Shown here: positions 6,295-21,312 of the stretch, piece by piece
Numbering within the stretch: position 1 is the stretch's first letter
How the letters are laid out: the number at the start of each line of letters is the position of its first letter
Source of the DNA: Labrys wisconsinensis
GTDB lineage: Bacteria; Pseudomonadota; Alphaproteobacteria; Rhizobiales; Labraceae
Direction of reading: 5' to 3'
Length of the DNA: 64,000 nt
NCBI RefSeq assembly: GCF_030814995.1
Contig: NZ_JAUSVX010000016.1
Span: 124,001 to 188,000, forward strand
Notes under the pieces: generated by a model
Told to the model about the DNA's origin: nothing
Database searches by the model: none
The model's input: the letters and a program-made list of their open reading frames with translations, nothing else
Position numbers and translations under genes: made by a program

Positions 6295-6448
6295 TGCTTC
6301 ATCGGTGAATGCGCGCGGATCCGGTGCGCCGGCCAAGTGCGGCAGACGGTGTTCAGCTCTCCCGAGAAAGCCGCGAACGCCTGGAATGGGCAGATTGCAA
6401 AGACCGTAGAGGATTTTCTCCGACGCTTTGCGTCAGGCAGAGGCATCA

Positions 6449-7630
6449 ATGGCACGCAGCATCGCCGCGATCGTAGAACCGAAGATCCTGACGTGGGCAC
6501 GCGCCACGGCGGGGCTTTCGATCGACGACGCAGCGAGGAGCATCCAGACAAAGCCCGAGAAGGTCGAAGCTTGGGAAAGGGGCGAAGAGAGCCCGAGCAT
6601 GGCTCAGCTCCGGAAAATGGCAGCCGCCTACAAGCGGGTCTTGAGTGATTTCTATTTGCCCGCAGTCCCCCGGGAAGGAGCGATACCGCACGATTTTCGT
6701 CGCCTGCCCGGCGAGGTTGCGCTGCATTATTCGCGCGCGCTGCGCTATCAGCTACGGATCGCGGCCGAGCGCCGCGAACTGGCGCTTGATCTAGCCGACG
6801 AGTTGGACAGTGAGGTTCCGACCGTCGATGGACATTTGCGACTCGATGCAGACGCCGAACAGTCGGGCGCGGAGCTACGCCGTCAGTTGCGCACGACGAT
6901 AGACAAGCAGCGTATTTGGCGCGATCCGCGTGCCGGCTACAACGGATGGCGTGCTGCGATCGAGCGCGCGGGCATCCTGGTCTTTCAGGCCGTCGGCATC
7001 CCGACGACCGAAATGCTCGGCTTCTCGCTCAGCGAGCGCCCCCTGCCTGTGATCGGCGTGAATCGCAAGCTGCGCCCGAACGGACGTACGTTCACCCTGC
7101 TGCATGAATGCGTGCACGTGTACCTTGGGGAGAGCAGCATTTGCGACATCGAGGACGGCGTGCTGCGCCCCCCGGAGGAGGAGAGGGTCGAGATCTTCTG
7201 CAACGCGGTTGCAGCCGCTGCCCTGGTACCTCTTGACAACTTGCTTGCAGAGCCCCTCGTGCGTGCTCAGCCCGCCCGCCCCCGCGATTGGAGCGCTGCC
7301 GAGCTGGCGGCGTTGTCGCGCACGTTCAGCGTCAGCGAGGAGGTAATCTTGCGCCGGCTGCTCACCGCCGGACGCACGTCGCAGGATTTCTATGCAGCCC
7401 GCCGCGCGGCCTGGGGCGGCTTGATGCAGGACGTGCAACCGTCGGACCCTGACGCCGAAATGAAGCGCAATATGCCGCAGGAAGTTTTGAGCGATCTCGG
7501 CAGGCCGTTCACGCAGATCGTGGTCAACAGCTATCAGAATTCCTATACTTCATTGAGTGACGTGACGCGGTATCTCGGCCTGAAAGCCGAGAAGATTGCC
7601 AAGCTGGAAGAATTGTTGGCGGGGCACTAA
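6449..7630 (+). CDS. XRE-family regulator with ImmA/IrrE metallopeptidase domain
   Basis: A 393-residue two-domain protein. Residues ~12-65 form a Cro/C1-type helix-turn-helix (LTWARATAGLSIDDAARSI, then VEAWERGEESPSMAQLRKM). Residues ~165-290 form an ImmA/IrrE zinc peptidase with HECVH at 219-223 (HExxH, second ligand His223) and a downstream EIFCNAVAAAALVP segment. Such proteins often act as antitoxin-like repressors, or cleave a repressor when induced. The next gene, encoding a DUF4411 protein, starts at the base after this stop codon, a common pairing in type II toxin-antitoxin loci. The frame can be extended 7 codons upstream; MARSIAAI is preferred. Confidence 0.85.
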   Translation: MARSIAAIVEPKILTWARATAGLSIDDAARSIQTKPEKVEAWERGEESPSMAQLRKMAAAYKRVLSDFYLPAVPREGAIPHDFRRLPGEVALHYSRALRYQLRIAAERRELALDLADELDSEVPTVDGHLRLDADAEQSGAELRRQLRTTIDKQRIWRDPRAGYNGWRAAIERAGILVFQAVGIPTTEMLGFSLSERPLPVIGVNRKLRPNGRTFTLLHECVHVYLGESSICDIEDGVLRPPEEERVEIFCNAVAAAALVPLDNLLAEPLVRAQPARPRDWSAAELAALSRTFSVSEEVILRRLLTAGRTSQDFYAARRAAWGGLMQDVQPSDPDAEMKRNMPQEVLSDLGRPFTQIVVNSYQNSYTSLSDVTRYLGLKAEKIAKLEELLAGH

Positions 7631-8104
7631 ATGGCCTCTCCGTCGATCTACTGCATTGACACCAGTTCAATTCTCACTTGGTACGTCGACATCTACCCTC
7701 CGGCGATCTTCCCAAAGCTTCCCGAACGGATCGAGCAACTGGTGGAAGTCGGGCGCATGCGGGCGCCCAAGGCTGTGTTCGACGAAATCAAAAGTGACGA
7801 TTGCCACAAATGGGCCAAGGCCCAGACCGACCTCTTTGTGGAAGAATCGGTGGCGGTTCAGAGGATCGTGCGCCAGCTCATGGCCACCCATCACAACCCA
7901 GCCAAACCCTTGAAGGGCATCAACGGAGCAGACCCGTTCGTGATTGCCATGGCGAAGGCTGGCGGTCCCAACTGGGTCGTCGTCAGCGACGAGCATGCGG
8001 GAACGCTCGAAAGCCGCAAGATTCCCTTCGTCTGCAATGCCGAGGGAGTCTCGTGCATCAACTTCAAGGCGATGATGCTCGCAGAGGGATGGACATTCAC
8101 ATAG
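7631..8104 (+). CDS. DUF4411 PIN-like protein, probable toxin
   Basis: A 157-residue DUF4411 protein. Acidic residues expected of a PIN-like nuclease centre are visible: IDTSSIL near the N-terminus (Asp9), a Glu in VFDEIKS near residue 50, GADPFVIAMA near residue 100 and VVVSDEHAG near residue 117. DUF4411 proteins are usually encoded right after an XRE-ImmA/IrrE gene, as here with zero intergenic bases, and are treated as the toxin of that pair. RNA cleavage is inferred from the fold. The gene ends 40 bp from the convergent EAD-like membrane protein gene. Confidence 0.8.
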   Translation: MASPSIYCIDTSSILTWYVDIYPPAIFPKLPERIEQLVEVGRMRAPKAVFDEIKSDDCHKWAKAQTDLFVEESVAVQRIVRQLMATHHNPAKPLKGINGADPFVIAMAKAGGPNWVVVSDEHAGTLESRKIPFVCNAEGVSCINFKAMMLAEGWTFT

Positions 8105-8143: not shown

Positions 8144-9784
8144 CTAGCACGTATTGCCCGGCCGGCTGGCGACGCCGTCGAAATCGGCCTCTGAGCCGAG
8201 GAGGCGCGCGCGCTGCTCGGCCGTCAGGGGCGGCAGGCAGGCGGCCTGGCTGCTGCTGCCGATCTGGATCTGGTTCTGGAGGCCATTCCTGAGCTGCAGG
8301 CGCGGCTGGACCGAGCGGATGTCGACGCCGTTGTCGAGGAAGACCTTGAGCACCTTCTGCAGCGCCGGGATCGGCACGTCGGCGCCGGCATAGACCACGT
8401 TGTAGCTGCCCGGCACCGTCGCCGACTTGGTGTTGAGCCGGGTGGCGAAGCCCGCCGCGGCGACCAATGGGGTGAGCTTGTCGGTCATCGCAGGCGTGTT
8501 CTGGCGCTCGAAGAACACGACGTCGATGGGATAGGCGAGCTGCACCACCATCTTGCCGCCGGCGCTGCCGGTGAGCTCGACCGGCTTGCCGAGCGCCATC
8601 GCGTCGGGGAGGTTGAAGCTCTCGGCATAGCCGGCCGAGAACAGCGAGCCGGACGTCCGCAACGTGATGGTCGCGCCGCCGGCGAGGCTCGGCTGCGGCA
8701 ACGCGAAGAAGCTCTGGAAATTCTGCACCGCGATGGCGCCGGGCACCACGGGGAGCTGGGCCTGCGTCGCCGACGAGAGGTCGATGCCGAGCGCCGTGAG
8801 AGGGATGCTGGCGCCGCCGGCGCTCAGCGTGGCGTCGACCTGCGCGGAGCCGGCGGACTTGTCGACCGCCACGCTCTGGACAAAGAGCCTGCCGCCCGTC
8901 GCCGGCGCCGCCTGCGCCGGCCCGACCAGGCTCCACGCGCTCGATGCGGCCGCCAGGCCGTGCCCGCCCTCATCCCACAGAAGCCCCATCGTGTCGCTCG
9001 GCCCCGGATCGTCGCTGCTCTTCTCCAGCTGGATCTGCGCGATGCTGAAGCCGCTGAAGCCCTGCACGGCCGGCGTGTTGCCGCCGCCGGGATATTGCAC
9101 GTTCAGGCTGATCCGGCCGGCGACGATCGCCCCGAGATATTGGAACGGCGACAGGGTGAGGCGGGCATCGCCGCTGCCGTTCACGGCATAGTAGTAGTCG
9201 CCATAGTGGATCGAGAAGCCGGGCCGCGGCGGGCTGTATTGCGGGCGGGTGTCGCTGGCGCTCACCCGGCCGTTGGCCACGGCCTGCTGGCGCTGCTCCG
9301 CCGAGGACTTGACCATGAGGCTGGCCGAGACCGGGATCGAGGCGATGGTGGTCAGCACGACGGCATAGGCGAGGAGCGCCGCCACCAGGATCCGGTTCGA
9401 GCGGACGGAAAGCCATTGGGCCGCGCGGGTGGCGAAGCCGGCAGCCGGGCCGGGCTCGGCCTCCGCCTCAGGCTCGGCCCGCCGGGCCTCCGGCGCGGGC
9501 CGCGCCGCCACGCTCGCCGCCAGTGCGGCCAGCCGCGCCCGCTTGTCGGGCGGCAGCAGCTCGGATTCGGCCAGGGCCTTGAGGAGCTCGACGACGAATC
9601 CCTGGTTGTTGGCCTTGCGAACCAGCTGGAAGACCTGCGTCCGCCAGACATCGGCCTCGACATAGTCGTCCAGCTGCTTGTCGAGCGCGGTGTAGAGCAG
9701 TTGCTCCAGGTCCGCGCGCTCGACGTGGCGGTTCACGATCTCGACGACGTCCTGAACCTCTTCGCCGGTGAGCACGCCCGCCAT
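8144..9784 (-). CDS. Membrane protein with N-terminal EAD1-like adaptor domain
   Basis: A 546-residue protein in three parts. Residues 5-72 form a small helical module (LTGEEVQDVVEIV, LEQLL, FQLVRKANNQGFVVELLKA) that closely parallels the first ~70 residues of the next protein upstream in the operon and fits effector-associated domain EAD1. Those are homotypic adaptors in bacterial conflict systems. A Pro/Ala/Glu-rich linker follows, then one membrane helix at ~132-156 (ILVAALLAYAVVLTTIASI). The remaining ~390 residues are an unrecognised, beta-rich, probably extracytoplasmic region ending in a cysteine-containing tail. It could tether the EAD-trypsin to the membrane by EAD-EAD contact. It is the last gene of the minus-strand run, 10 bp after the EAD-trypsin stop. 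The C-terminal function is unknown. Confidence 0.75.
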   Translation of the reverse strand: MAGVLTGEEVQDVVEIVNRHVERADLEQLLYTALDKQLDDYVEADVWRTQVFQLVRKANNQGFVVELLKALAESELLPPDKRARLAALAASVAARPAPEARRAEPEAEAEPGPAAGFATRAAQWLSVRSNRILVAALLAYAVVLTTIASIPVSASLMVKSSAEQRQQAVANGRVSASDTRPQYSPPRPGFSIHYGDYYYAVNGSGDARLTLSPFQYLGAIVAGRISLNVQYPGGGNTPAVQGFSGFSIAQIQLEKSSDDPGPSDTMGLLWDEGGHGLAAASSAWSLVGPAQAAPATGGRLFVQSVAVDKSAGSAQVDATLSAGGASIPLTALGIDLSSATQAQLPVVPGAIAVQNFQSFFALPQPSLAGGATITLRTSGSLFSAGYAESFNLPDAMALGKPVELTGSAGGKMVVQLAYPIDVVFFERQNTPAMTDKLTPLVAAAGFATRLNTKSATVPGSYNVVYAGADVPIPALQKVLKVFLDNGVDIRSVQPRLQLRNGLQNQIQIGSSSQAACLPPLTAEQRARLLGSEADFDGVASRPGNTC

Positions 9785-9794
9785 CCCCGCCTCC

Positions 9795-10853
9795 TCAAGC
9801 TGCCCCGGCCAGGGCGATCGCCCGATCCTTCAGCCAGGCGGCGACGAGGCCGATCGGGATGCCCTGGTTGTAGGTCGGGGTCCAGTTGGGATCGCCGGCA
9901 TGGTGCAGCGCCAGCAGCCCGAGGCTGGCGTCGAACACCGGGGAGCCGGAAGAGCCGGGCTCGGTGTTGGCGTCGTAGCGCAGCCGCAGGCCCGAAGGCA
10001 CCGGCGCCTCGACCACGCCCGAGGCCAGCGACAGCGGCGCGCCCTGCGGATGCTGGACGATGAAGACGACGTCGCCCTCGCTCGCCCTGGGCGCCTCGAC
10101 GCTGAGCGGGATCGAGCCGCGGAGGCCGGTCCCCTTCGCGTCCCGCCCCACCGGCTCGGCCAGCCGGACCAGCGCGAAATCGAGATCGCCCGGGCCTGCA
10201 GCGCCGGCGCCGGCCGTGAGATCCGCCTGCGCATAGGGCGCGGAGGCCACCAGCCACTGCGCCGCCGCCTTCACCACCCGGCCGGGCTGGTCGGCCCCGT
10301 CGCGGGTGGAATAGTCGAAGCGGAAGGCGAGGTCGGCCGGCGCGGCGACACCCTTCGCCTCCGCCTCCACCACGTGATAATTGGTCAGGACGAGGTCGTC
10401 GGCCACCAGGAAGGCCGTGCCGTACATCTTGCCTTCGACCCGGCAGACCCGCCCCTGGATCCTGACCAGCAGGTCGAGCCAGCGCCCGAAATCGCGCATG
10501 GTGGAGCGGTCGCGGACGATCTTCTCCAGCGGCCCCGTGGCGGCAGCCGCGCCGGCAGGCTGGCTCGGCGCCACCAGCCCGAGCGTCGTCCGCAATCCCT
10601 TGATGCGCGGCGCATCCGGCCGCTCCGCCTCGATCGCCTCGATGAGCCGCTGGCCGAAGCCCTGCATCTGGCTGGCGCGCACCACCCGGAACACCCGGAA
10701 TTCCCAGGTGCCGGGCTCGGCGAGGTCGTCGATGTCCCTGTCCAGGTCGGTGGCGAGCAGCATGGTGAGCTGCTCCTCGTCGAAGCTCGAGCGGATCGCC
10801 TCGACGACGACCTTGACCTGTGCGCCCGTGAGGTTCTCCAGATCAACCGCCAT
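9795..10853 (-). CDS. EAD1-like domain fused to trypsin-like serine protease
   Basis: A 352-residue fusion. Residues 8-75 are an EAD1-like module (LTGAQVKVVVEAIRSSF, LTMLLATDLD, FRVVRASQMQGFGQRLIEA) matching that of the membrane protein encoded 10 bp downstream. Residues ~125-345 are a trypsin-fold protease with the full triad: His160 in TNYHVVE, Asp225 in DLDFALVR, and Ser302 in PGSSGSPVF. There is no signal peptide, so it is expected in the cytoplasm. Its role is most likely an activatable effector brought to its regulator by adaptor pairing. ATG 10853 is chosen because the module starts immediately; the open frame above it runs antisense-like through the amidase gene and is rejected. Confidence 0.85.
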   Translation of the reverse strand: MAVDLENLTGAQVKVVVEAIRSSFDEEQLTMLLATDLDRDIDDLAEPGTWEFRVFRVVRASQMQGFGQRLIEAIEAERPDAPRIKGLRTTLGLVAPSQPAGAAAATGPLEKIVRDRSTMRDFGRWLDLLVRIQGRVCRVEGKMYGTAFLVADDLVLTNYHVVEAEAKGVAAPADLAFRFDYSTRDGADQPGRVVKAAAQWLVASAPYAQADLTAGAGAAGPGDLDFALVRLAEPVGRDAKGTGLRGSIPLSVEAPRASEGDVVFIVQHPQGAPLSLASGVVEAPVPSGLRLRYDANTEPGSSGSPVFDASLGLLALHHAGDPNWTPTYNQGIPIGLVAAWLKDRAIALAGAA

Positions 10854-10972
10854 GGCGGACCTCCCCTGCCGAGGCGAGGGCGAACGCGGCCGGCCGCGCC
10901 GGAGCGGCCCGTCGTCCCGTCCGGCCCCGCTTGACGCGACGTGAATGGATGCGCGCCGGCATGGCCGCCGCC

Positions 10973-11695
10973 TCAGGCCGAAACCTTGCCGGCGCTGCGG
11001 CGCGTCCTGCTCCGCCGCGGCCTTGCCGCCGCTGCGGCCGGCGCCGAGGACTCGCCGTGGCAATGGTCGGGCATGCGCGACTGGTCGCTCGCCAGGCCCG
11101 GATCCTCCTCGATCAGCGCGGAGAAGCGCCCCTCGGCGATGCCCTCGGTGTTGTCGAGCATGATGAAGTCGGCCTCGTCCTTGGTATAGGCCGGATCCCA
11201 ATGGGTGTTCTCCGGCACATGGCAATGGCCGTAATGGCCGCCCTTGCCGTCCCAGTTCGCGGCGTTGCGGTTGTGGCCGCCGGGATCGCGGCCGTCGACC
11301 GCCGGCTTGGGGCGGCCGTTCGGCCAGACCTTGGGAATGCCGTGCGTCGCCTCGAGCCAGCGGCAGAGCCGGCGGACATTGTCGAGCGTCGCCCGGGTCT
11401 TCGGGCGATGGGCGAAGCCGACCACCTCGATCTGGATGGCGGAATCCCGGTTGGTCTGCACGCCGCCCGGCGCGTTGCGCAGCGCCCGCGCCGCCATGCC
11501 GGTGTCGATGTGCTGGTAGACGGTGGTCGCGTCCACGGTGAAGTGCGGGTCCGAGCGATGCGCCTTGAAGGCGTCGAAGGCGCCCTGGGCCGTGCCGCCC
11601 TCGGTGGTGTGGTGGACGATCTTGAAGGGGCCGCCGGTGTAGGAGCCCGACGGGCCGCTGATCGGCTTGGAAACGGCGAAAGGACACATGGGCAT
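10973..11695 (-). CDS. N-acetylmuramoyl-L-alanine amidase-fold (PGRP-like) protein
   Basis: A 240-residue protein with the Amidase_2/PGRP fold: IVHHTTEGG at residues 26-34 (first zinc His and Thr), HFTVDATTVYQHID near residue 51, a central SAIQIEVVGFA strand, and a late GHYGHCHVP motif that supplies the remaining zinc His. Such enzymes cut the amide between N-acetylmuramic acid and L-alanine. No signal peptide is present, and the last ~40 residues are a basic Ala/Arg tail (AAARPRRSRTRRSAG). It sits between a protease and a muramidase in the hydrolase island. GGGAGAA lies just upstream of the ATG. Whether it acts on the cell's own wall is unknown. Confidence 0.8.
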   Translation of the reverse strand: MPMCPFAVSKPISGPSGSYTGGPFKIVHHTTEGGTAQGAFDAFKAHRSDPHFTVDATTVYQHIDTGMAARALRNAPGGVQTNRDSAIQIEVVGFAHRPKTRATLDNVRRLCRWLEATHGIPKVWPNGRPKPAVDGRDPGGHNRNAANWDGKGGHYGHCHVPENTHWDPAYTKDEADFIMLDNTEGIAEGRFSALIEEDPGLASDQSRMPDHCHGESSAPAAAAARPRRSRTRRSAGKVSA

Positions 11696-11715
11696 GGGGG
11701 TTCTCCCGTGAAGCG

Positions 11716-11775
11716 GCCGGTGGTCAAGCCACCGGCAGGGCGGCCCAGCCGGTGGTCAAGCCACCGGCAGGGCGG
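11716..11775. repeat. Tandem palindrome spanning the muramidase stop codon
   Basis: A 28-bp sequence occurs twice, at 11716-11743 and 11748-11775, with a 32-bp period. Each copy contains the palindrome GCCGGTGG-TCAAG-CCACCGGC (8-bp stem, 5-nt loop). On the minus strand the loop contains the TGA stop; the second copy encodes the last residues and stop of the muramidase, and the first repeats them downstream. It may act as a stop-associated terminator, or may simply be a recent tandem duplication. Confidence 0.7.
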
Positions 11776-12535
11776 CGAGGCCGGCTTCGAACAGCCTCGC
11801 CTCGCGTTCGCGGCGCATCTGCAGCCCCGGCACGCCCGGCCACAGGCGCTTCATCGAGCGCAGGTCGCCGGGCACCGCGGCAAAGGCGGCCGCCGCCATG
11901 TGCTGCTTGATGCTGCGCATCTCGGCATAGCGGTCGCCGGCCTTGGTGAAGGAGGCGCCACGGTTGTAGGTGAGCGAGACCAGGGCACCGAGGCAGTCCG
12001 GGCCGATCCTGGCCGTGTTGGCGAGCGAACGCTCGACCAAGCCCACCCAGCGCGGCATCACCTTGCCGCGGTGCACCTTGATGGCGGCGTCCCAGGACAC
12101 GTCGACCGAGGCCTTCAGCGCCCTGGCGATCGGCTGGGCCGAACCGCCCTGCACGCCGACGGCCCGCTCCAGGGCGGTAACCATGGCGGCGGGAATGGCA
12201 TCGTCCCAGTCGGCGTGGAGCTGCGCCCGGGTGGCATAGCCGACGTCGTAGCCGATGCCGATGGTCACGCCCGAGGCGCCCTGCGGCCAGGTCGGGCTGC
12301 GATATTTCTGCTCGTAGATCTGCTGGCTCGACACTTCGAACTCGACGATCAGGTCGAAGGCACGCTGCGAGATCGGCGTCGCCGATCCCGGGCCGGAGAT
12401 CTGCGGGCCTTCGAGCACGCCGCGCCCGGCCTCGTTGTCCCACCACCAGGCCAGGCCTTCGCGATCCCCGCGAGCCTGCTCGAGGAAGGCCTCCTCGATC
12501 GGCGCCTCGATCAGGCTGTCGGCTTTGCTGCTCAT
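11756..12535 (-). CDS. Lysozyme-like (pesticin/T4-type) muramidase
   Basis: A 259-residue protein. The recognisable block is residues ~55-105: FDLIVEFEVSSQQIYEQKY, then PTWPQGASGVTIGIGYDVGY, the Glu...TxGxGYD arrangement of the T4-lysozyme/pesticin muramidase fold. ALVSLTYNRGASF near residue 195 corresponds to the helix that packs on the active site. The family cuts the MurNAc-GlcNAc bond of peptidoglycan. There is no signal peptide, so export would need a holin or lysis. Start ATG 12535 gives a clean N-terminus; 22 more codons are open upstream. Its stop lies inside a duplicated palindrome. Assignment rests on the motif, so exact family membership is moderate. Confidence 0.7.
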   Translation of the reverse strand: MSSKADSLIEAPIEEAFLEQARGDREGLAWWWDNEAGRGVLEGPQISGPGSATPISQRAFDLIVEFEVSSQQIYEQKYRSPTWPQGASGVTIGIGYDVGYATRAQLHADWDDAIPAAMVTALERAVGVQGGSAQPIARALKASVDVSWDAAIKVHRGKVMPRWVGLVERSLANTARIGPDCLGALVSLTYNRGASFTKAGDRYAEMRSIKQHMAAAAFAAVPGDLRSMKRLWPGVPGLQMRREREARLFEAGLAALPVA

Positions 12536-12634
12536 GGCTCTCTCCTGTTGAAGGATTCCCCGCCGCGACACCGCGGTCCGGAGGCCGTCTCTCATCTGCA
12601 ATCCGCCCGGCCGGCCGACGAGGGCGGCATCCCC

Positions 12635-14275
12635 TCAGCCGCCCGGCCTTGCCGCCATGGCGGCGAGCAGGGTCGGGCTCGGCGCCAGCGCCCCGGTCGT
12701 CGCCTCCAACTGCGCGGCGCCCTGCCGGGCGAGGCCGGCCTGCATCGCCAGATGCGACAGCTCGGCGGCGAAGCGCCGGTCGGCCGCCGCAGCCGCCGGC
12801 GCCGGCACGCCCTCCAGCATCGGCGCCGCGACCGGGCTCTCGGCCAGCAGGCTGCGCAGCGAGCGCAGCCCGTCGGCCACGGCGGCCGGGCCCGGCATCT
12901 CCTCCAGCGCGGCCGGGCCGAGGCCGCGGCCCAGCAGGCCGGCGGCATCGACGACGCCGGCACCGAACTCGTCGGGGTCGAGGCCGGGCACCCGGCGCGC
13001 GCTGGCCCGCAGCAGCCCGACGAAGCGGGACTGGACCGTCTCGCCCGGCCCGAGGCTGCGCCGGATCGCGTCGGGCCCGTGATGCGCCAGCCACAGCGCC
13101 GCCACCCCGGCCGTCAGCGCCACGGCGAAGGAGGTGCCCTGGCCGCCGGCGACGCTTTCGGGGCTGCCGCCATTGGCGGGCGAGCGGTTGGCCCGCGGCA
13201 CGAACTCGCCGGGCGCCGATATGTCGACGGCCTCGCCGCGGCAACTGCCCTTCCAGGGGCGATCGGCCCGGTTCGAGCCGGCGACGGCGATGACCTCCTC
13301 GTAGCGGGCGGGCCAGACGACGAAGCCGACGCAATTGCCGGCGGCGGCGAGCACGATGACGCCGTCGCGGATGGCAGCGTCGATGGCGGCGCGCAGCGCG
13401 CTGCTCCAGGGGCCGCCGAGGCTCATGGTGATCACCTCAGCCCCGTTGCGGCGCGCATGCTCGACGGCGGCGGCGACGCGGCCGTGGTCGAACACGACGA
13501 CGCTCTCCACCGCCCGCAGCGGCACCAGGGTGGCGAGCGGCGCCGAGCCGGCCATGATGCCCGCGATGCGGCTGGCGACGACGCTGGCGGTGCCGGTGCC
13601 GTGGCCGGGATTGCCGCCATAGTTCATGGGGTCGGTGGCGCCGGGCCTGTCGGCGACGAAGTCGTGGGCGCGTCCGAGGTCGAGCATCCCCGGCTCGATC
13701 TCGACATGGTCGGCGACGCCGGTGTCGGGCTGGAACACGCTGATCCCCTCCCCGCGTGCCCGGCCGCCGGCCGCCGGCGCCGTCTCCCAGGCGGCGCGGG
13801 CGCGGATGGCGTCGAGCGCCCAATAGGGCAGCGCCGGCGTCGGATCCCCGGCCTGGTCGACCCAGCAGCCGGGCGGGAAGGCGTCCAGCCCCTCCAGGCC
13901 GGGCTCGGCGCTCTCGCGCACCACGTAGAAGCCGGCCCCGGTCTCGGGCTCGGCCGTCACCGCCCCGCTGGCGTCGGCCATGGCATAGGCGAGCTCGAAT
14001 GGGCTGCCGGCGAGGTCGGCGACGCGCACCCCGGGAATGCTCGCCGCCAGGAAGCGGTCGAGCCCGCCGGGCGCAGCCCGGGACGGCGGATCCGCCAGGA
14101 GCGGCGCCACCTCCACCTCGATGCCGAGCGCCAGGCGCAGACGCGCCGCCACGGCCGCGGGGGGCTGCGCCGCATCGAATTCGAGAACGACACGCAGTGT
14201 CCGCCGGGATGGCGCGGCGCCGGGCGCGCGCTGCAGCGACCGGACCTGGTCGAGAAGGCGCTCGCGTTCCGTCAT
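12635..14275 (-). CDS. Subtilisin-like (S8) serine protease
   Basis: A 546-residue subtilase with a complete catalytic set: Asp184 in FQPDTGVADH, His225 in GHGTGTASVVAS, oxyanion Asn314 in AAAGNCVGF, and Ser382 in GGQGTSFAVALTAG. The first ~170 residues precede the catalytic domain and end with LPYWALDAIRARAAW, the usual substrate-strand entry of subtilases, so they may be a propeptide or regulatory region. No signal peptide is seen. The last ~130 residues are Ala/Leu-rich helical sequence. It is the first gene of the minus-strand run, divergent from the trypsin-nuclease gene, and probably transcribed from the 14.28-14.61 kb spacer. ATG 14275 is chosen over the longer low-complexity extension. 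Confidence 0.85.
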   Translation of the reverse strand: MTERERLLDQVRSLQRAPGAAPSRRTLRVVLEFDAAQPPAAVAARLRLALGIEVEVAPLLADPPSRAAPGGLDRFLAASIPGVRVADLAGSPFELAYAMADASGAVTAEPETGAGFYVVRESAEPGLEGLDAFPPGCWVDQAGDPTPALPYWALDAIRARAAWETAPAAGGRARGEGISVFQPDTGVADHVEIEPGMLDLGRAHDFVADRPGATDPMNYGGNPGHGTGTASVVASRIAGIMAGSAPLATLVPLRAVESVVVFDHGRVAAAVEHARRNGAEVITMSLGGPWSSALRAAIDAAIRDGVIVLAAAGNCVGFVVWPARYEEVIAVAGSNRADRPWKGSCRGEAVDISAPGEFVPRANRSPANGGSPESVAGGQGTSFAVALTAGVAALWLAHHGPDAIRRSLGPGETVQSRFVGLLRASARRVPGLDPDEFGAGVVDAAGLLGRGLGPAALEEMPGPAAVADGLRSLRSLLAESPVAAPMLEGVPAPAAAAADRRFAAELSHLAMQAGLARQGAAQLEATTGALAPSPTLLAAMAARPGG

Positions 14276-14614
14276 CGCCCCGGCCCCTGAGCGCCCGGCC
14301 TCGGGCCCACGCCCGGTTCGAGCCTCGCGTCCGCATCGTCCGGAAGCACGGCAGCGACGGTCCCGGCGAGAGCTGGGACCCCAGCCCGCCGAAACGCGCG
14401 GCGCGAACAATCGACGGACAAAGCTATGGGGTCAACAGTAACGTCAGCAATAACTTTACGTCAAGTTCACGGCGTGACACCATGTCCCTGCGGAATCTGC
14501 GACAATGCCGAATTCTCCGGCGCAGCGCCGGCCGGCAGCCCGGCCGGCGGCGACACCCGGACCCGACAGCCTGCATCGATATCCTGGACCGACGCCCACC
14601 CCGGAGCCCTCGCC
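14276..14614. promoter_or_regulatory. Divergent spacer of the hydrolase island with direct repeats
   Basis: A 339-bp gene-free spacer between two divergent effector genes. An AT-richer patch at 14425-14470 carries TAACGTCA (14439-14446) and TTACGTCA (14456-14463), i.e. TGACGTWA twice on the minus strand with a 17-bp period. TTGACG on that strand could serve as a -35 box for the protease run. No regulator gene is adjacent. The rest of the spacer shows nothing I recognise. Confidence 0.4.
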
Positions 14615-16777
14615 ATGGCCGCACCTACGGAACGCCTGAAGTCCTATCTCGACCGCATCCTGCCGGCCGCGAGCCCGCTGGAGGCGCTGGCCGAGGACCG
14701 CTCCGGCCTGGAGTCCCTGGCCGAGCGCAAGGCGCTGCCCAAGAGCCGGGCCGACATGGCGCGCAACGCCGTGCAGAAGGCGAGCACCGGCAAGGCGCTG
14801 ACGCCGCCCGAGCAGTTCGCCCTGGAGGCGATCATCATCCCCGACCAGCGTCCGGCGATCGACATCGTCGACGGCGACTATGCCGTGAGCCACCCGCTCT
14901 GGACGCATTTCGTCACCGATCCGGCGATCCACGCCAATATCCGCCGGGCCATCCCCGCCATCGGCCGCATCGAGCTGCCGAACCATCCGAGCCTGCCCTA
15001 TGGCGGCACCGGCTTCGTCGTCGGCGCCGACCTCGTCATGACCAACCGCCACGTCGCCGAGATCTTCGCCTCGGGGCTCGGCTTGCGCGACCTCGTCTTC
15101 CGCTCGGGCCTCACGGCCGGGATCGACTTCAAGCGCGAGCGCGGCCGCGACGGCTCGACCTTCCTGACGGTGCGCGAGGTGGCGATGATCCATCCCTATT
15201 GGGACATGGCGCTGCTGCGGGTCGAGGGCCTGGCGCCCGAGCAGGCGGCGCTCTCCCTGGCGCTGCGCGATCCCGACGCGCTGGTCGACACCGAGGTGGC
15301 GGTGATCGGCTATCCCGCCTTCGATCCGCGCAACGACGCGGCGGTGCAGAACGAGGTGTTCGGCGGCGTCTACTACGTCAAGCGCCTGCAGCCGGGCAAG
15401 ATCATGAGCCGCGCGCCGATCCTGAGCTTCGGCAAGACGGTCTCGGCAATCCGCCACGATTCATCCACCCTGGGCGGGGATTCCGGCGCCGCCGTGGTGG
15501 AGGCGGCGACCGGCAAGGTGATCGCGCTGCATTTCGGCGGCGTCTATCTCGACGCCAATTACGGCGTGCCGGTCGCCGAGCTCGGCCGCGACGGCCGCGT
15601 CACCGCCCTGCAGCTCGACTTCGACGGTCGCCCGAGCCCGGGCGCGGCGCCGTGGGAGGACTGGTGGCGCAGGACCGATCCGCAGGAGGCGCCCGCCGCG
15701 CCGCCCGCAACCGCGCCGGAGCCCGCCGGCCAGCCCGCCCTGCGCTCCGCCGGCCCCGACGGCGCCACCTGGACGATCCCGATCGAGATCAGCATCCGCC
15801 TCGGCACGCCCACGGCGGCCGCGGCCGCCGTCCCAGCCGCGGCGGCGATGGAGGCCATGGTCGAGCCGACGCACGACGCCGACTATTCCACGCGCCGGGG
15901 CTATGACGCAGGCTTCCTCGGTGTGCCGGTGCCGCTGCCCGGCGCCCGGGATGCCGACAGTGTGGTGCGCTTCGCCGGCGGGGAGACGATCCCCTATCAC
16001 CATTTCTCCCTGGCCCTGCACAAGGCCCGGCGCATCGCCCTGTTCACCGCCTCGAACCTCGACGGCAGCGCCGCCGCCAAGAAGCCGGACAAGGACCACG
16101 CCTATGACCGCAAGAGCCTGGGCGGGCTCGGCCGTGTCGACATGGAGAAATGGTTCATCGATCCGAGGATCGACCCGCGCTTCCAGCTGCCCGACCGCTT
16201 CTTCACCAAGGACAGGGGCGCCTTCGACAAGGGCCATATCGTGCGGCGCGAGGACGTCGCCTGGGGGCGCAGCTTCGAGGAGGTGCGCTTCGCCAACGGC
16301 GACACGTTCCACGTCACCAATTGCTCGCCGCAGGTCAGCGGCTTCAACCAGTCCGCCGCGGGGCAGGACAATTGGGGCGACCTTGAGAACTACGTGATGA
16401 AGCAGGCGGCGGCCGAGAAGCTCTGCCTGTTCGCGGGGCCGGTGCTGGCGGAGGACGACCCGATCTTCGTCGGCGTCGACGATATCGGGCCGGTGCGGGT
16501 CAAGATCCCGCGGCAATATTGGAAGGTGGTGGTCGCCGCTTCGGACGGGAGCCTGCAGAGCTTCGGCTTCGTGCTGCGCCAGGACCTCGCCGACGTGCCG
16601 CTGGAATTCGTGGTCGACGCGGTCTGGCAGAAATACATGGTGCCGCTCGCCGCGCTCGAGGCGCTCAACCCGCTGGTGCGCTTCCCCGACGCGGTGCGTG
16701 CGGCGGACCAGTCCGGCCGGGCCGGCGGCGAGGCGGTGCGCCGGAGCCTCGCCATCGCCATGGCGCCGACGGCCTGA
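14615..16777 (+). CDS. Trypsin-like protease fused to DNA/RNA non-specific endonuclease
   Basis: A 720-residue fusion. Residues 1-90 are a helical leader (LTPPEQFALEAIIIPDQRPA). Residues ~110-340 are a trypsin-like protease with His146 in TNRHVAE, Asp197 in HPYWDMALL and Ser290 in LGGDSGAAVV. A Pro/Ala-rich linker at ~355-415 leads to a C-terminal NUC-type endonuclease (~430-690). The nuclease carries DKGH at 538-541, equivalent to the DRGH motif, with catalytic His541, and the metal-site asparagines in VTNCSPQVSGFNQ. Both active sites look intact. No signal peptide is present. ATG 14615 is preferred because the upstream 63 codons lie in the promoter spacer. Its stop is 9 bp from the convergent unknown gene. 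Confidence 0.9.
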   Translation: MAAPTERLKSYLDRILPAASPLEALAEDRSGLESLAERKALPKSRADMARNAVQKASTGKALTPPEQFALEAIIIPDQRPAIDIVDGDYAVSHPLWTHFVTDPAIHANIRRAIPAIGRIELPNHPSLPYGGTGFVVGADLVMTNRHVAEIFASGLGLRDLVFRSGLTAGIDFKRERGRDGSTFLTVREVAMIHPYWDMALLRVEGLAPEQAALSLALRDPDALVDTEVAVIGYPAFDPRNDAAVQNEVFGGVYYVKRLQPGKIMSRAPILSFGKTVSAIRHDSSTLGGDSGAAVVEAATGKVIALHFGGVYLDANYGVPVAELGRDGRVTALQLDFDGRPSPGAAPWEDWWRRTDPQEAPAAPPATAPEPAGQPALRSAGPDGATWTIPIEISIRLGTPTAAAAAVPAAAAMEAMVEPTHDADYSTRRGYDAGFLGVPVPLPGARDADSVVRFAGGETIPYHHFSLALHKARRIALFTASNLDGSAAAKKPDKDHAYDRKSLGGLGRVDMEKWFIDPRIDPRFQLPDRFFTKDRGAFDKGHIVRREDVAWGRSFEEVRFANGDTFHVTNCSPQVSGFNQSAAGQDNWGDLENYVMKQAAAEKLCLFAGPVLAEDDPIFVGVDDIGPVRVKIPRQYWKVVVAASDGSLQSFGFVLRQDLADVPLEFVVDAVWQKYMVPLAALEALNPLVRFPDAVRAADQSGRAGGEAVRRSLAIAMAPTA

Positions 16778-16786
16778 GCCTCCGGC

Positions 16787-17338
16787 TCAGGGCAGGCGAT
16801 AGCCCCGATATCCCGCATCGGGGTCGAGCCGGCCGGGAGGGGAGACCCGCGCCCGCTCGGCGAAGCCGGCATGGTCGACCAGCGCGATCTCGGCGGCGGG
16901 CGCCTCGCGCGGATCTTCGGCGGCCGGCCAGGCCCGGATGCGCAGGGCGGCGATCCCGGCCGCGCCGGCCCGGGCGAAGACGGCGTAGCGGCCGTCGGGT
17001 CGGCGCAGCCCGGCGATACGGCGCACCGGCGGCACGCGCTCGACCGGGCCCGGCGTGGCGGCCCCGGCCGAGCTCCCGCGCGGCAATGCCGAGAGCTCGA
17101 CCGCGAAGCCGCGGCCCTCGTCCGCCGACAGGCCGATCCAGAACGCCTCCTCATCCGCCACCGGCAGCAGGAAACGGCCGGGTGTGCCCGCCGGCATCGG
17201 CGCCAGCGCGCCGAGGCTCGACGGCGCCGCGCCGACCTCGCCCGAGGCGGGGCGGGCGAAGCGCTGGAACGACAGCGCGAGCGCCCCGCATCGCAGGCCC
17301 GCCGGGGATGCCTGCCAGTCCATGCCCGCTGCGATCAT
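16787..17338 (-). CDS. Unrecognised protein coupled to the caspase gene
   Basis: A 183-residue product I do not recognise. It has no membrane helix or signal, is rich in Ala, Gly, Arg and Pro, and contains short beta-like stretches (GRFLLPVADEEAFWIGL, RRPDGRYAVFARAG). Its ATG overlaps the stop of the caspase gene by four bases (ATGA), so it is almost certainly translated after it. That position suggests an accessory, inhibitor or substrate of the caspase, but no direct evidence exists. It is the last gene of the second minus-strand run and converges on the trypsin-nuclease gene. Confidence 0.65.
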   Translation of the reverse strand: MIAAGMDWQASPAGLRCGALALSFQRFARPASGEVGAAPSSLGALAPMPAGTPGRFLLPVADEEAFWIGLSADEGRGFAVELSALPRGSSAGAATPGPVERVPPVRRIAGLRRPDGRYAVFARAGAAGIAALRIRAWPAAEDPREAPAAEIALVDHAGFAERARVSPPGRLDPDAGYRGYRLP

Positions 17339-19890
17339 TCCCGCAGCTTATCATGCCCTCTGCGGAGGGCGCGAAGCGCCGCGGGCGGCAATTGCAGGGC
17401 CGCGGCGCGGCTGCGCAGGCCCCGCGCCTCCGCGGCGGTCGCGCGGGGCTTGCGCGGCGCCGGCTCCGCCGCGAAGGACTCCAGCGACTCCAAGGCCGAC
17501 TGGGGCCGAGCGCCCTTCCGCACGCCGAACGGCCGCTTCAGGATGGGCTCGAACGATTCGGCCGACACCTCGCCGGTCTCCGCCGGCCGCTCGCCGAAGG
17601 CGATATCGGCGAGGGCCTCGCGGTAATCGGCCTGCACCGCCGCATCGACGGACCAGGCGAGGAAGGGCGGCACGGGCGCGAGCGCATGCACGCGCTGCCA
17701 GAGCGACAGCGGCACCAGCCCCGGCTGGTCCTGGCTGGCAGCGATGATCAGGCGCCAGCTGCGCTCGAACATCGGCGGCGTGCGCAGCGGCCGGGTCCGC
17801 CGCAGGCCCCGGTCGGGGCAGCGCAGCGACAGGGCCTCGACATCGGGATGCTCGTCGCCCACGAGGTGGCGCAGGTTGCGCACGACCGTGTCGAGATCCG
17901 CGAGCCCCTCGCGGCGCTCACTGCGCTCATGCTGCAGCAGCAGGAGGTGGGCACCGACGATGCCCTCGATCGGATTGGCGAACTTGCGCACCAGCAGGCT
18001 CTCGAGCTCCGCGCCGAGAATCGGCCGCTCGTCGGCCAGGGCGAGGCGCGCCTTTTCCAGCAATTCATCCTCTGCCCGCAGCCCTTCACCCGGCCGGCGC
18101 ATCAGGAAGGAGAGGCGCGGCCGCACGTCGCCCGTGCCGTCGGCCATCCGACGCAGCAGATAGGTCTCCAGCCGCCAGCCGCCGGGGACGACCAGCGCCT
18201 GCTCGAAGCGCTGGTCGGCAAGCGCGTGGCGGAGAAAGTAGGTGCCCGGCGCGACGGAGACCGTGCACGTGGCGAAGGGGTCGCCCTGCTCCGAGCGCCT
18301 GCCATCGGTCTCGAGGTCGGCGAGGAGCCGGCCCTTGGCGTCGACCAGGCGGACGCCCTGCCAGGGCTTGGCCTGCGGCGAGGAGCCGGCCTCGCTCCAG
18401 CTGCGCGCCATGATCATCAGCTCGGCACCCCGGCCACGGACGAGGTCGGAGGTGCCGGCCGGCCGCTCGGCCGAGTGCCGGGCCGAATCGACCTGGTCCT
18501 TGCGCGTGGCGAAGGCATTGTGGAAGGGCACGGACGAGGCGATCCTCTGCGGCAGCTCGAGGCGCAGCTCCAGCGTCGCCGGCGCCAAGGCCTCCTCGAT
18601 GCCGGGCGGCCGGGCCGACTGGACCGTGGCCCCGTCGAGGGCCAGCACCCGGCTCGTCACCTGGCGGCCGATGCGGATACGGGTCTTGTAGAGGCCAAAG
18701 GGCAGCCTCGTGGCGAGGCGCCCGCCGGCGGTCTCCCGCGGCGAGAAATCGGCGGCGACGACGCTGATCTCGGCGGTGGGATCGTCGGGCTCGACGGTGA
18801 GCGGCAGCATGGCGCCCGGCACCGGCTGCATCACCGGCGGACCGCGCTCCGTCACCGCGATGCTGCCGGCGCGGACCACCTCGAAGCCTTGACGGTAGCC
18901 CGCACCCTCGACGAGGTGCAGGCCGGCGGGCAGGCGCAGGGCCAGCTCGGCTGCCGCGACGAGCTGCCTCGGCTGCGGCGCCTCCGTCCCCGACCACAGC
19001 CGCGCCGGCGCGCCGATCGCCTCCGCGGGAAAACGCAGCGTCACGTCGAACAGCAGCGGCGTCACGGCACGAGCGAAGACGAGGCTCTCATCCTCCGCCA
19101 CGATCTCCGGCTCCTGGGACACGTCGGGATCGCGGCGGTCGACCTCGCTGAGCCAGGGCGAGACGGCGTTGCGCAGCCAGTTGGCCAGGCTGCGGCCGGT
19201 GATCTGGCTCGCGGTGTTGACGGCGGCCCCGCGCAGGCCCTGCAGCAGCGCCCAGGTGAAGAGGCCGTGCACCTGGCCGCCGTCCTCGGCCACCGGCGCC
19301 TCGACCGCCTTGAGCGGGCGCTGCGCGGCGAAGGCGATGAAGCTGGCGCCGGGCGGATCGCCGACGGTGATCGGCGTGAGCGGCGCCGGCGTCGGCGTCG
19401 CCGTCAGCACCCGGTTCATGCAGCAGTCCATCAACAGCACATATTCGCGGAAATAGCCGGCGTCCTGCCACCATTGCAGCCAGAGGCTGGCGCCGATATT
19501 GGCGGTGATCCGCTCCGGGCCGGCATTGCCGGCGAGCAGGCAGCCCTGCCGGACCTGGGGCGAGAAGCCGTGGCCCGACATGTGGACGTAGAGGCGGCGG
19601 CCGACGCGCCGGGGGCGGCCCGCCGCCATATTGGCGAGGGCGAAGCGTTCGATGGCGAGGAAGGCGCCCTGCTCGAGCTCGTCACGCGTCGGCTGGCCCG
19701 GAGGCGGCGGGGCGCCCGCGGATTTGATGCGGATGACGTTGGCCTCGGGCAGGCCGCCTCCCGCGGGGTCGGTCAGCCAGGCATGGACGGCGTCGGCGTC
19801 GTTGCCCGGGCCTTCCAGGTCCGCCGGCGGATCGGTGAAGCCGGGATAGGCGGACAGCCCAATGACGACGGCATAGTGATCCTCGTTCAT
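17335..19890 (-). CDS. Caspase-family (C14) protease with long C-terminal region
   Basis: An 851-residue protein. The N-terminal ~250 residues are a caspase/metacaspase domain: start strand HYAVVIGLSAYPGF, LEGPGNDADAVHAWL, catalytic His107 in YVHMSGHGFS, and the Asp-Cys-Cys dyad segment VLLMDCCMNR with catalytic Cys157. About 600 residues follow with beta-rich stretches (ALRLPAGLHLVEGAG, GTYFLRHALA) and then helices; I cannot assign a domain there. Caspase-like proteases in bacteria commonly execute regulated cell death. The ATG overlaps the metzincin stop and the stop overlaps the next ATG, each by four bases, so three genes form one translationally coupled unit. No signal peptide is visible. 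Confidence 0.85.
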   Translation of the reverse strand: MNEDHYAVVIGLSAYPGFTDPPADLEGPGNDADAVHAWLTDPAGGGLPEANVIRIKSAGAPPPPGQPTRDELEQGAFLAIERFALANMAAGRPRRVGRRLYVHMSGHGFSPQVRQGCLLAGNAGPERITANIGASLWLQWWQDAGYFREYVLLMDCCMNRVLTATPTPAPLTPITVGDPPGASFIAFAAQRPLKAVEAPVAEDGGQVHGLFTWALLQGLRGAAVNTASQITGRSLANWLRNAVSPWLSEVDRRDPDVSQEPEIVAEDESLVFARAVTPLLFDVTLRFPAEAIGAPARLWSGTEAPQPRQLVAAAELALRLPAGLHLVEGAGYRQGFEVVRAGSIAVTERGPPVMQPVPGAMLPLTVEPDDPTAEISVVAADFSPRETAGGRLATRLPFGLYKTRIRIGRQVTSRVLALDGATVQSARPPGIEEALAPATLELRLELPQRIASSVPFHNAFATRKDQVDSARHSAERPAGTSDLVRGRGAELMIMARSWSEAGSSPQAKPWQGVRLVDAKGRLLADLETDGRRSEQGDPFATCTVSVAPGTYFLRHALADQRFEQALVVPGGWRLETYLLRRMADGTGDVRPRLSFLMRRPGEGLRAEDELLEKARLALADERPILGAELESLLVRKFANPIEGIVGAHLLLLQHERSERREGLADLDTVVRNLRHLVGDEHPDVEALSLRCPDRGLRRTRPLRTPPMFERSWRLIIAASQDQPGLVPLSLWQRVHALAPVPPFLAWSVDAAVQADYREALADIAFGERPAETGEVSAESFEPILKRPFGVRKGARPQSALESLESFAAEPAPRKPRATAAEARGLRSRAAALQLPPAALRALRRGHDKLRE

Positions 19891-20594
19891 AGCCGGCCGG
19901 GATAGACGTTCCGGATCAGCGTCTCGTCGTCGGCCGAAAGGTCGGCGTTGAGGCCGGCCGAGGTGCCGTCGAGGGTCCAGGCCTTCGGGATCGGGTACAT
20001 CATGATCGAGTGGGGATCGACGGGGGTGGCGACGACCGCATCCGGCGCGTAGACCTTGAACATGTTGGTCTCGATGGTCGGCAGGTCCCAGTTGTTGGGC
20101 GGGCCCTCCAGGTCGTGGATCACCGCGTCGCGGTTCCACTTGATGCCGTGCTTGGGGCTCTGGTGCTCGTGGATGAGCCCGATGGCGTGGCCGAACTCGT
20201 GCAGCACCACGCGCCGCAGCTCGTCGTCGGACGAGGCATCGGTGAGCCAGCCATAGTTCATGGTCGGCTGCGGCTCCGGAATGGTGCGGCACATGGTGCC
20301 GAGATAGGACCAGGAGCCCTTGCCGGGGGCAAACGCGATGCGGATGTCGGTCGGCCCGGCGGCGAGGAAGCTGAAATTGAGGTTGGCGATCTTCGTCCAT
20401 CGCAGGGCGACGTCGCGCACCCGCTGCTGCAGGGCCGGCGAGCCGCCGAGGAAGCGGATGCCGATCGAGGCGCCGTTGTCCCAGCGCGCGTTCTTGAGGA
20501 CGGCCGCCTTGTGGGAGGTCAGGGCCGCCCTGTCCGGCGCCGGCAGGTCGTCCGGCGTCATGCACACGCAGAAGCGATCGGGATTCTCAGCCAT
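19887..20594 (-). CDS. Metzincin zinc metalloprotease (astacin/matrixin-like)
   Basis: A 235-residue protein with the extended zinc site HEFGHAIGLIH (His132, His136 and His142, Glu133 catalytic) followed by EHQSP, and a Met-turn in HSIMMYP near residue 198, which together define metzincins. The strand preceding the site (MNYGWLTDAS, RRVVLHEFGH) is typical of astacin/matrixin relatives. There is no signal or propeptide, so it is predicted to be cytoplasmic, unlike most secreted family members. A strong GGGGGGAC ribosome site precedes the ATG. It is coupled to the caspase gene by an ATGA overlap and is encoded just after two small membrane proteins. Confidence 0.88.
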   Translation of the reverse strand: MAENPDRFCVCMTPDDLPAPDRAALTSHKAAVLKNARWDNGASIGIRFLGGSPALQQRVRDVALRWTKIANLNFSFLAAGPTDIRIAFAPGKGSWSYLGTMCRTIPEPQPTMNYGWLTDASSDDELRRVVLHEFGHAIGLIHEHQSPKHGIKWNRDAVIHDLEGPPNNWDLPTIETNMFKVYAPDAVVATPVDPHSIMMYPIPKAWTLDGTSAGLNADLSADDETLIRNVYPGRL

Positions 20595-20606
20595 GGTCCG
20601 TCCCCC

Positions 20607-21062
20607 CTATTTCGTGCGCGGATTGGTCGCGGCCACCTGCTCCAGCGCAGCCTGGCGGCCCTCCAGGGCGGCGAGGCGGCCGCCGAGATCGATGTCCATC
20701 GGCGGCCGGTCGCCGGAGGGCGGCGTGCCCTGGATCTCCTCGTCGGCGGCCGGCTTCTTGCGGCGGCCGTCGAGGAACCAGGTGGCGCCGAACACGCCGC
20801 CGGAATTATGCACGAGCACGATGAGCGCGATGAAATAACCGAAGAAGCCGACGAACAGGCCGATGCCGTAGGCGCCGAACAGCGCCTTGTCGGCCCCGCC
20901 GAACAGCGAGGTGACGCCGGCGCCGCCGACGATGCCGACGATGGTCGTCAGGTCGCTGAACTGGACGTCGGCCTTGCGGTAGCGGTTGATGTAGTAGACG
21001 AGCCAGCCGATGATGCAGCCGAAGCCGGCAGCACCGAGACCGGGAATGCAGCTGCTATCCAT
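20607..21062 (-). CDS. Small membrane protein of the hydrolase island
   Basis: A 151-residue protein with an N-terminal hydrophobic stretch (GLGAAGFGCIIGWLVYYI), then two helices around residues 38-90 (TTIVGIVGGAGVTSLFGG, GIGLFVGFFGYFIALIVLV). A basic loop and a C-terminal helix with coiled-coil character (LGGRLAALEGRQAALEQ) follow. A GGGGGAT ribosome site precedes the ATG, which overlaps the previous gene by 8 bp. The family is not recognised. Its place before the metzincin and caspase suggests a membrane sensor or anchor, or a pore for the muramidase; these are inferences. Confidence 0.65.
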   Translation of the reverse strand: MDSSCIPGLGAAGFGCIIGWLVYYINRYRKADVQFSDLTTIVGIVGGAGVTSLFGGADKALFGAYGIGLFVGFFGYFIALIVLVHNSGGVFGATWFLDGRRKKPAADEEIQGTPPSGDRPPMDIDLGGRLAALEGRQAALEQVAATNPRTK

Positions 21063-21312
21063 CGCCTGATCCCCCTTCCGCGCGATCCGCGCTCACGCCC
21101 CTTCCGGCCAGATGCGACCGCCAGGCCGCATGTGCCGCCGCCCCAGCCACGGCGCCGGCCAGCACAGCCGGCCAGGCCCCGGGCACGGCGAGCCAGCAAC
21201 CGGCGGCGGCGAGGCCGAGGAAGGCGGCAGCCGGCAGGGACGCAGGGCGAAGGACCAACCGCGCCAGCCAGCCGCACACGACCCCGAGCGCCAGCGCGCC
21301 GACGACGATCAT
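21055..21312 (-). CDS. 85-residue membrane protein, first gene of the caspase unit
   Basis: Almost entirely hydrophobic: helices at ~2-22 (IVVGALALGVVCGWLARLVL), ~27-45 (LPAAAFLGLAAAGCWLAV) and ~47-65 (AWPAVLAGAVAGAAAHAAW), then a short charged tail. Length and topology resemble holin-like or small accessory membrane proteins, but no family is recognised. It overlaps the next gene by 8 bp and is the likely first gene of the run ending at 16.8 kb. The leader upstream is AT-richer and contains TAAATA near 21335, a possible -10 element. Confidence 0.55.
   Translation of the reverse strand: MIVVGALALGVVCGWLARLVLRPASLPAAAFLGLAAAGCWLAVPGAWPAVLAGAVAGAAAHAAWRSHLAGRGVSADRAEGGSGDG

Follow-up and report, generated by a model that had tools for sequence, protein, structure and literature searches.

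An eleven-gene hydrolase island of Labrys wisconsinensis looks like an enlarged NucA-trypsin self-destruct system joined to a metzincin-caspase module

We analyzed a 64,000-nucleotide stretch of the Labrys wisconsinensis genome (contig NZ_JAUSVX010000016.1, positions 124,001 to 188,000; hereafter the window), which carries an island of hydrolase genes at window positions 8144-21312. The island resembles, in enlarged form, a type of bacterial self-destruct system that has had few tests and whose prediction dates from 2020 (Kaur et al. 2020, eLife 9:e52696, PMC7159879). The best explanation, and in our judgement a probable one, is a NucA-trypsin conflict system (System 3) that has been enlarged and to which a metzincin-caspase module is joined. 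The core architecture, a pair of EAD1 proteins, the conserved catalytic residues, and partners that stand beside or are fused to the core in other genomes support the enlarged NucA-trypsin assignment, and the genes for wall-cutting enzymes hint at a way in which systems of this type could lyse the cell. The island consists of eleven intact open reading frames (ORFs; here g1 to g11) with coding-type codon-position G+C. A first-pass annotation of the same DNA had counted ten genes; its own list adds up to eleven, including an 85-residue ORF that starts exactly at position 21312. The hydrolase classes it named are all present, in intact frames and with catalytic motifs, the caspase and the lysozyme scoring below Pfam cut-offs (our Pfam scans covered the genes at 1-41.7 kb of the window).

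The core is g6 (14615-16777, plus strand, 720 residues), which joins a trypsin-like peptidase (Trypsin_2, 58.7 bits, cut-off 27.6; 1.5e-15) to a NucA-type endonuclease (Endonuclease_NS, 112.8 bits, cut-off 23; 2.5e-32) in a LypC-like architecture. Trypsin residues H146, D197 and S290 and endonuclease residues H541, N569 and E591 are invariant in all 46 full-length sequences of the family, window included. An export signal is absent from 45 of the 46 by hydropathy, the sole basis of our transmembrane (TM) and signal calls; the exceptional signal, in locus L090 (L and G numbers are our locus labels), probably reflects a start called too far upstream. The PADLOC ‘nacht’ model has a match at 1.2e-19 in g6 (ORF 14426-16777), over the N-terminal region and the trypsin domain, where there is no NTPase; that model probably covers a trypsin domain. 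Next to the core, g5 (12635-14275, minus strand, 546 residues) is a subtilisin (Peptidase_S8, 87.9 bits, cut-off 21.8; 9.4e-25), and a homologous domain is fused to the g6-type protein in relatives.

Two proteins carry the adaptor. g2 (9795-10853, minus strand, 352 residues) combines EAD1 (31.0 bits, cut-off 24.2) with a trypsin-like peptidase (Trypsin_2, 73.1 bits, cut-off 27.6; 5.1e-20; motifs TNYHV, DLDFALV and GSSGSP). g1 (8144-9784, minus strand, 546 residues) has an EAD1-like N-terminal domain (about residues 1-100), one predicted TM segment (132-150), and a C-terminal region without known relatives, which shows no significant profile match to the LytR_C-like TM protein family A2 (E 0.45). 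For g2 the Pfam profile confirms the earlier claim of an EAD1-like adaptor on two proteins; the domain of g1 is not reported by PF19955 and matches that of g2 at 2.5e-9 (phmmer). The two domains form a reciprocal best pair, with 30-35% identity depending on the alignment. Across the whole genome, PF19955 places g2 alone over its cut-off, with three weak sub-cut-off matches elsewhere, and our own EAD1 profile, built partly from both proteins, finds only g1 and g2 at E<=1. No match to g1 was found among plasmids. EAD1 domains adjoin g6 relatives in further loci, which supports the System 3 assignment, and we propose that g1 is a membrane sensor or adaptor.

Kaur et al. describe NucA-trypsin systems with S8 fusions, EAD1-trypsin proteins and peptidoglycan-attacking effectors; they propose that a cascade of proteolysis switches on the NucA-trypsin core, that EAD1 is an intracellular coupling adaptor that recruits effectors by homotypic contact, and that EAD1-linked effectors of the system attack the wall (PMC7159879). 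The island shares with this description a trypsin and a NucA endonuclease in one protein, both over the Pfam cut-off; an S8 partner (g5), an EAD1-trypsin (g2) and a second EAD1 protein (g1); peptidoglycan-attacking partners; and an EAD pair that is mutually the best match, no further EAD1 having been found in the genome. The EAD1 pair and the match to System 3 support the first-pass proposal of an EAD1-linked conflict system; its description of the system as undescribed has to be given up, because the 2020 paper describes NucA-trypsin systems and the core matches its System 3. Two features differ from what the System 3 section sets out. A lysozyme or a papain-like wall peptidase is fused there to EAD1 in EAD1 variants, not in the core, whereas the island encodes its lysozyme and its amidase in genes of their own, neither with EAD1; and the island has an added metzincin-caspase-g7 module, whereas that section mentions no caspase, metzincin or amidase. 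A STAND NTPase with bDLD2 occurs in certain System 3 operons and is optional. As the first-pass annotation had noted, no STAND NTPase is seen among the genes scanned at 1-41.7 kb, and a genome search with one NLR query (the NLR-like protein of L027) gave no match, an empty result of little weight.

The second point of comparison is LypABC of Caulobacter crescentus, for which Banks et al. (2026, PMC13236601) report that the LypC trypsin serine and the LypB ATPase are needed for lysis, that LypABC is needed for the release of gene transfer agents (GTAs), and that the lytic effector is unknown. g6 has the LypC order, trypsin then endonuclease in one protein, a likeness judged by architecture only; and in both systems a trypsin-like partner bears a helical adaptor domain (g2 here, LypA in Caulobacter). 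The island differs in that EAD1 stands in place of a CARD or NLR ATPase, neither of which was found in the scanned genes or with the one NLR query, and in that wall hydrolases adjoin the core. The suicide or phage-defense role that had been suggested for the island is putative, but LypABC shows by experiment that a system containing a g6-architecture protein can bring about lysis.

The wall hydrolases lie between the EAD1 genes and g5. g3 (10973-11695, minus strand, 240 residues) is an amidase of phage-endolysin type (Amidase_2, 42.2 bits, cut-off 26; PHROG endolysin match 3.6e-17), and its relatives, at 70-77% identity, adjoin trypsins in L101, L048 and L068. g4 (11756-12535, minus strand, 259 residues) is lysozyme-like, of pesticin/phage-lysozyme type: its lysozyme match is below Pfam cut-offs and it has no PHROG match; it belongs to a seven-sequence alignment with many invariant residues; and it has two phage relatives, one annotated as an endolysin. 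Relatives of g3 or g4 also occur in eight viral-contig loci at 27-49% identity. Locus L048 contains an EAD1-trypsin, a trypsin-endonuclease, a lysozyme and an amidase, the lysozyme (66% identical to g4) adjoining the trypsin-endonuclease and followed by the amidase (73%) in the same order as in the window. In L027 a lysozyme gene (58%) lies 38 bp after the trypsin-endonuclease gene, inside an NLR-bearing LypABC-like operon, and in L043 an NlpC/P60 gene (50 bits, cut-off 23) lies 76 bp after the g6-type gene.

Wall hydrolases or candidate domains were found in the same ORF as a g6 relative, or within 4.3 kb of one, in 13 of 67 loci (window excluded), or in 11 of about 59 when loci with g6-type proteins at least 80% identical are merged. 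This count is a lower bound because it comes from seeded wall-hydrolase or candidate families (12 loci) and one chance Pfam match (L043); the Pfam tally of neighbors covered 84 proteins (82 of 230 non-redundant neighbors and two from L099) and the top 25 families. Seven of the 13 loci are counted by an unconfirmed M15-like domain alone, and without it the count is six (L027, L043, L048, L067, L068 and L077), four of which (L027, L048, L067 and L077) owe their lysozyme call to similarity to g4, itself below the Pfam cut-off. The M15-like domain, about 145 residues long, is fused C-terminally to the trypsin or trypsin-endonuclease in L047, L051, L083, L085 and L086 (the last three all Massilia) and is also present in L050, L064 and L067. 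From its motifs we take it to be an M15-type wall peptidase, as an unconfirmed candidate only: Pfam does not recognize it, no solved structure matches, its PHROGs match is a family of unknown function, and its predicted model is poor (mean predicted local distance difference test score, pLDDT, 43.8). A domain in L077 and L099 is, from its motifs, presumably YkuD-like, a label that Pfam does not confirm. A Geminocystis plasmid carries a row of a trypsin protein (with GDSL below cut-off), GH19, a TPR gene, a g3-like amidase (70%) and a trypsin-M74 murein endopeptidase fusion. In L133:7462-10560 and L134:9618-12443 the lysozyme domain lies within a larger ORF, which we take, from unconfirmed motifs, to include a papain-type peptidase and an alpha/beta-hydrolase.

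The other half of the island is the module of g9 (19887-20594, 235 residues), g8 (17335-19890, 851 residues) and g7 (16787-17338, 183 residues, no known domain), all on the minus strand. g9 is a matrixin-type metzincin (Peptidase_M10, 31.8 bits, cut-off 24; motifs HEFGHAIGLIH and SIMMYP). g8 has a caspase-like domain (residues ~1-260) and a domain of about 370 residues without a Pfam match, which we call g8C. The caspase domain scores 14.2 against a Pfam cut-off of 21.4 and has a PADLOC caspase match at 1.1e-9; a profile of nine members matches solved metacaspases at 9.2e-7, and H107 and C157 are invariant in all nine. In tblastn searches of plasmids, g8-like caspases turned up in seven records and g9-like metzincins in 15, and g9 relatives (56% and 60%) adjoin g8 relatives: a Sinorhizobium terangae plasmid (L140) has g9, g8 and g7 in the same order (56%, 40% and 36%), the g7 homolog (1.9e-17) being the only one in the fetched loci, and Cupriavidus has the g9-g8 pair (60% and 46%). 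Judged by these sequence comparisons, g9-g8-g7 is a separate conserved module. The EACC1-caspase System 4, as presented by Kaur et al. 2020, resembles the island in that its caspase bears a C-terminal domain of a different type and small membrane proteins are close by; its EACC1 component lies upstream of the caspase gene. We reject membership in it, as Pfam finds no EACC1 in g9, g10 or g11 and the NCBIfam model caspase_w_EACC1 gives g8 36 bits against a cut-off of 140. The small predicted membrane proteins g10 (20607-21062, minus strand, 151 residues) and g11 (21055-21312, minus strand, 85 residues) each have two hydrophobic segments by the cut-off used, and calling them a pore or an anchor is a guess.

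The strongest rival explanation is that the two modules, NucA-trypsin g1-g6 and metzincin-caspase g7-g11, are unrelated mobile units that lie side by side with no joint function. The strand changes between them, g6 being the only gene on the plus strand; g7-g10 have no relatives beside g6 relatives, save g9 in L080 and a caspase in L077; and the S. terangae and Cupriavidus modules occur without a trypsin-endonuclease in the fetched stretch. The g8C domain speaks for a connection. It was found in eight proteins: it is fused to the caspase in the window, L140 and L141, and is separate, just after the caspase, in L144, L145 and L147; in Rhizobium gallicum (L146) it is fused to a trypsin-endonuclease directly after the caspase gene, and in L143, likewise next to a caspase, to a trypsin, in a protein annotated as phospholipase D-like. 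Caspase and g8C adjoin an endonuclease-trypsin ORF in L144 and an S8 in L147, and four of the seven caspase plasmid records (L143, L144, L146 and L147) have a trypsin, endonuclease or S8 within 10 kb. In addition, a Bradyrhizobium barranii plasmid (L142), found via g9 and g6 and outside those seven records, carries both modules within about 19 kb, in a stretch with a trypsin, a caspase, a metzincin, a second metallopeptidase, a trypsin-endonuclease and an EAD1-trypsin. On this balance we regard a chance juxtaposition as unlikely. The comparison gave no support to the genes being inherited together, and we reject a single inherited ten-gene unit: relatives have two separately recurring modules, of g2-g6 type and g7-g9 type, which are sometimes found together. 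Separately, g8C in R. leguminosarum (L145) lies in a 576-residue protein and that of R. gallicum in a 1252-residue g8C-trypsin-endonuclease, the two sharing 60% identity over 538 residues.

Relatives of g6 are sporadic: 17 of 150 genomes of the order have one at E<=1e-10, and one of five family genomes, L. wisconsinensis itself, at E<=1e-30. The other genes are found in one of 150 order genomes (g3, E<=1e-8), five of 150 (g4, E<=1e-6), one of 199 (g8, E<=1e-5) and seven of 199 (g9, E<=1e-6); the genome counts for g3, g4, g6, g8, g9 and g10 include the own genome, and a limited number of candidates was scored per genome. A g6 scan of genome contigs gave 52 loci in Alpha- and Betaproteobacteria, Planctomycetes, Myxococcota, Bacteroidota and others, a pattern as expected for a horizontally moved system. 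The LacI gene on the right flank has no counterpart at E<=1e-60 in four same-genus genomes. The loci include two recurrent types. In type A (L026, L040, L041, L074 and L027) the trypsin-endonuclease is followed by trypsin proteins and then by an NLR-like protein of ~1060-1200 residues from one cluster; S8 is fused in all but L027 (in L041 by Pfam; in L074 as a trypsin-S8 without endonuclease), the trypsin partner of L040 carries bDLD2 (144.5 bits), and L041 has NACHT over cut-off. We classify this type as the LypABC/CARD-NLR-like form from its gene content. Type B loci (L043, L048, L053, L064, L067 and others) have trypsins and other proteins with EAD1 or EAD1-like domains, as well as TM proteins, and by the same comparison the window is nearest to type B, plus S8 and wall hydrolases. 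On a Ti plasmid (L102), S8, CHAT and S8 genes precede the trypsin-endonuclease. On plasmid pB41S5 of Bradyrhizobium sp. 41S5 (L103), a row of trypsin-endonuclease, trypsin and serine protease genes lies near dpd/que 7-deazaguanine genes, with two genes between.

Several observations weigh against the assignment to an enlarged System 3. No fetched relative carries the complete block; the C-terminal part of g1 has no relative in the fetched loci, g10 has none in 199 order genomes but its own (E<=0.001), and g11 has no Pfam match over cut-off and no relative in the fetched loci. A g8-type caspase lies beside g6 relatives in only one of the 67 loci (L077), and the stretches from S. terangae, Cupriavidus and R. 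leguminosarum (L140, L141 and L145) are without trypsin, nuclease or S8. g3 and g4 have no EAD1 match, and the wall enzymes of Kaur et al. are EAD1-linked. Nor is the lysozyme family, by its profile matches, exclusive to such protease loci: seven of nine class-wide matches have no trypsin, endonuclease, S8 or EAD1 profile match nearby (two of the seven, L136 and L137, are short contigs of 3.7 and 7.9 kb), and only the window and G117 (the same locus as L027) are near a trypsin-endonuclease. The four order-sample g4 matches beyond the window lie beside a trypsin-endonuclease (L027), beside exported trypsins and CHAP (G030), beside S8 (G009) and alone (G011). L098:4704-10215 has two trypsins, a CHAP protein and a g4-family lysozyme with export-type N-termini near phage-like genes, possibly an exported counterpart. 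Finally, Banks et al. state that the endonuclease activity of LypC is dispensable for lysis, and that Caulobacter ghost cells keep their shape and no holin-endolysin homologues were found there (PMC13236601). Lysis by wall hydrolases may therefore be a special case among such systems, not what they generally do. All 46 g6 sequences have identical catalytic residues, and therefore the nuclease is kept, even though that of LypC is dispensable.

The LypABC comparison also raises the alternative that the island is a lysis programme that releases GTAs or prophage rather than a defense system. The LypC architecture of g6, the need for LypABC in GTA release (PMC13236601), the resemblance of g3 to phage endolysins and the two phage relatives of g4 would fit this proposal. 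However, no prophage gene was recognized among the window genes scanned (no genome search for a GTA cluster was made), and g6 is absent from the four same-genus genomes searched; we consider this alternative less likely still than an accidental pairing of modules. We reject as very improbable that the enzymes are exported to digest or prey on other bacteria: wall hydrolases, proteases and a nuclease would suit digestion, and L098 relatives have export-type N-termini, but g2-g4 and g6-g9 show no signal peptide or TM segment by hydropathy, in line with the first-pass annotation of the enzymes, no credible signal occurs among g6 relatives, and EAD1 is proposed as an intracellular adaptor (PMC7159879).

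Because g6 is encoded on the plus strand and the other ten genes on the minus strand, the island has three or more transcription units rather than a single operon. Gaps of 10-119 bp separate the genes of the minus-strand run g5-g1, and g6 diverges from them; in the second minus-strand run, g11-g7, three junctions have overlaps of 8, 4 and 4 bp and the fourth a 12-bp gap. Adjoining the island at 6019-8104 are a ParD antitoxin ORF, an XRE-M78 gene and a DUF4411 gene, which are toxin-antitoxin-like; we take DUF4411 to be PIN-like. The codon-position G+C of the island is similar to that of the flanking genes save these, whose third-position G+C is 0.72-0.75, against 0.84-0.95 in the other listed genes, and by this measure they are probably a recent arrival.

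For the enlarged NucA-trypsin system joined to the caspase module, we infer the following mechanism, every step of which goes beyond the domain calls. g1, with EAD1 and a TM segment, would be the inner-membrane anchor of the complex and would sense damage or infection; EAD1-EAD1 contact would bring g2, the initiator protease, to g1; trypsin, subtilisin, caspase and metzincin, with g5, g8 and g9 as the further proteases, would form a processing cascade; this cascade would release the g6 nuclease, the core executor, and switch on the endolysin-type amidase g3 and lysozyme g4, leading to killing and lysis; and, in the weakest step, g10 and g11 might give the wall enzymes passage in a holin-like manner. 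A broader reading, which we hold only tentatively and think unlikely, is that NucA-trypsin and LypC-type systems kill through a lysis module of their own, in which a death-domain-like adaptor recruits the trypsin to the membrane, a cascade of several protease classes (trypsin, subtilisin, caspase and metzincin) processes it, and dedicated, domesticated phage endolysins, encoded next to the core or in fusion with it, break down the wall. The caspase-g8C unit would then feed a further signal into this trypsin-nuclease executor, in an apoptosis-like caspase-to-endonuclease pathway.

In the open-access literature (PubMed Central), we found no paper that joins NucA-trypsin systems to the caspase-g8C module, and none that names wall hydrolases as LypABC-type effectors. 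If the broader reading is true, the lytic effector still missing from LypABC could be a wall hydrolase of this sort, and endolysin-type genes in or fused to such cores, above all the L027 lysozyme, make that question directly testable by knock-out. A bacterial caspase-nuclease pair recalls caspases and EndoG in eukaryotic cell death, and the fusion of the caspase module to trypsin and NucA would tie bacterial caspases to a nuclease.

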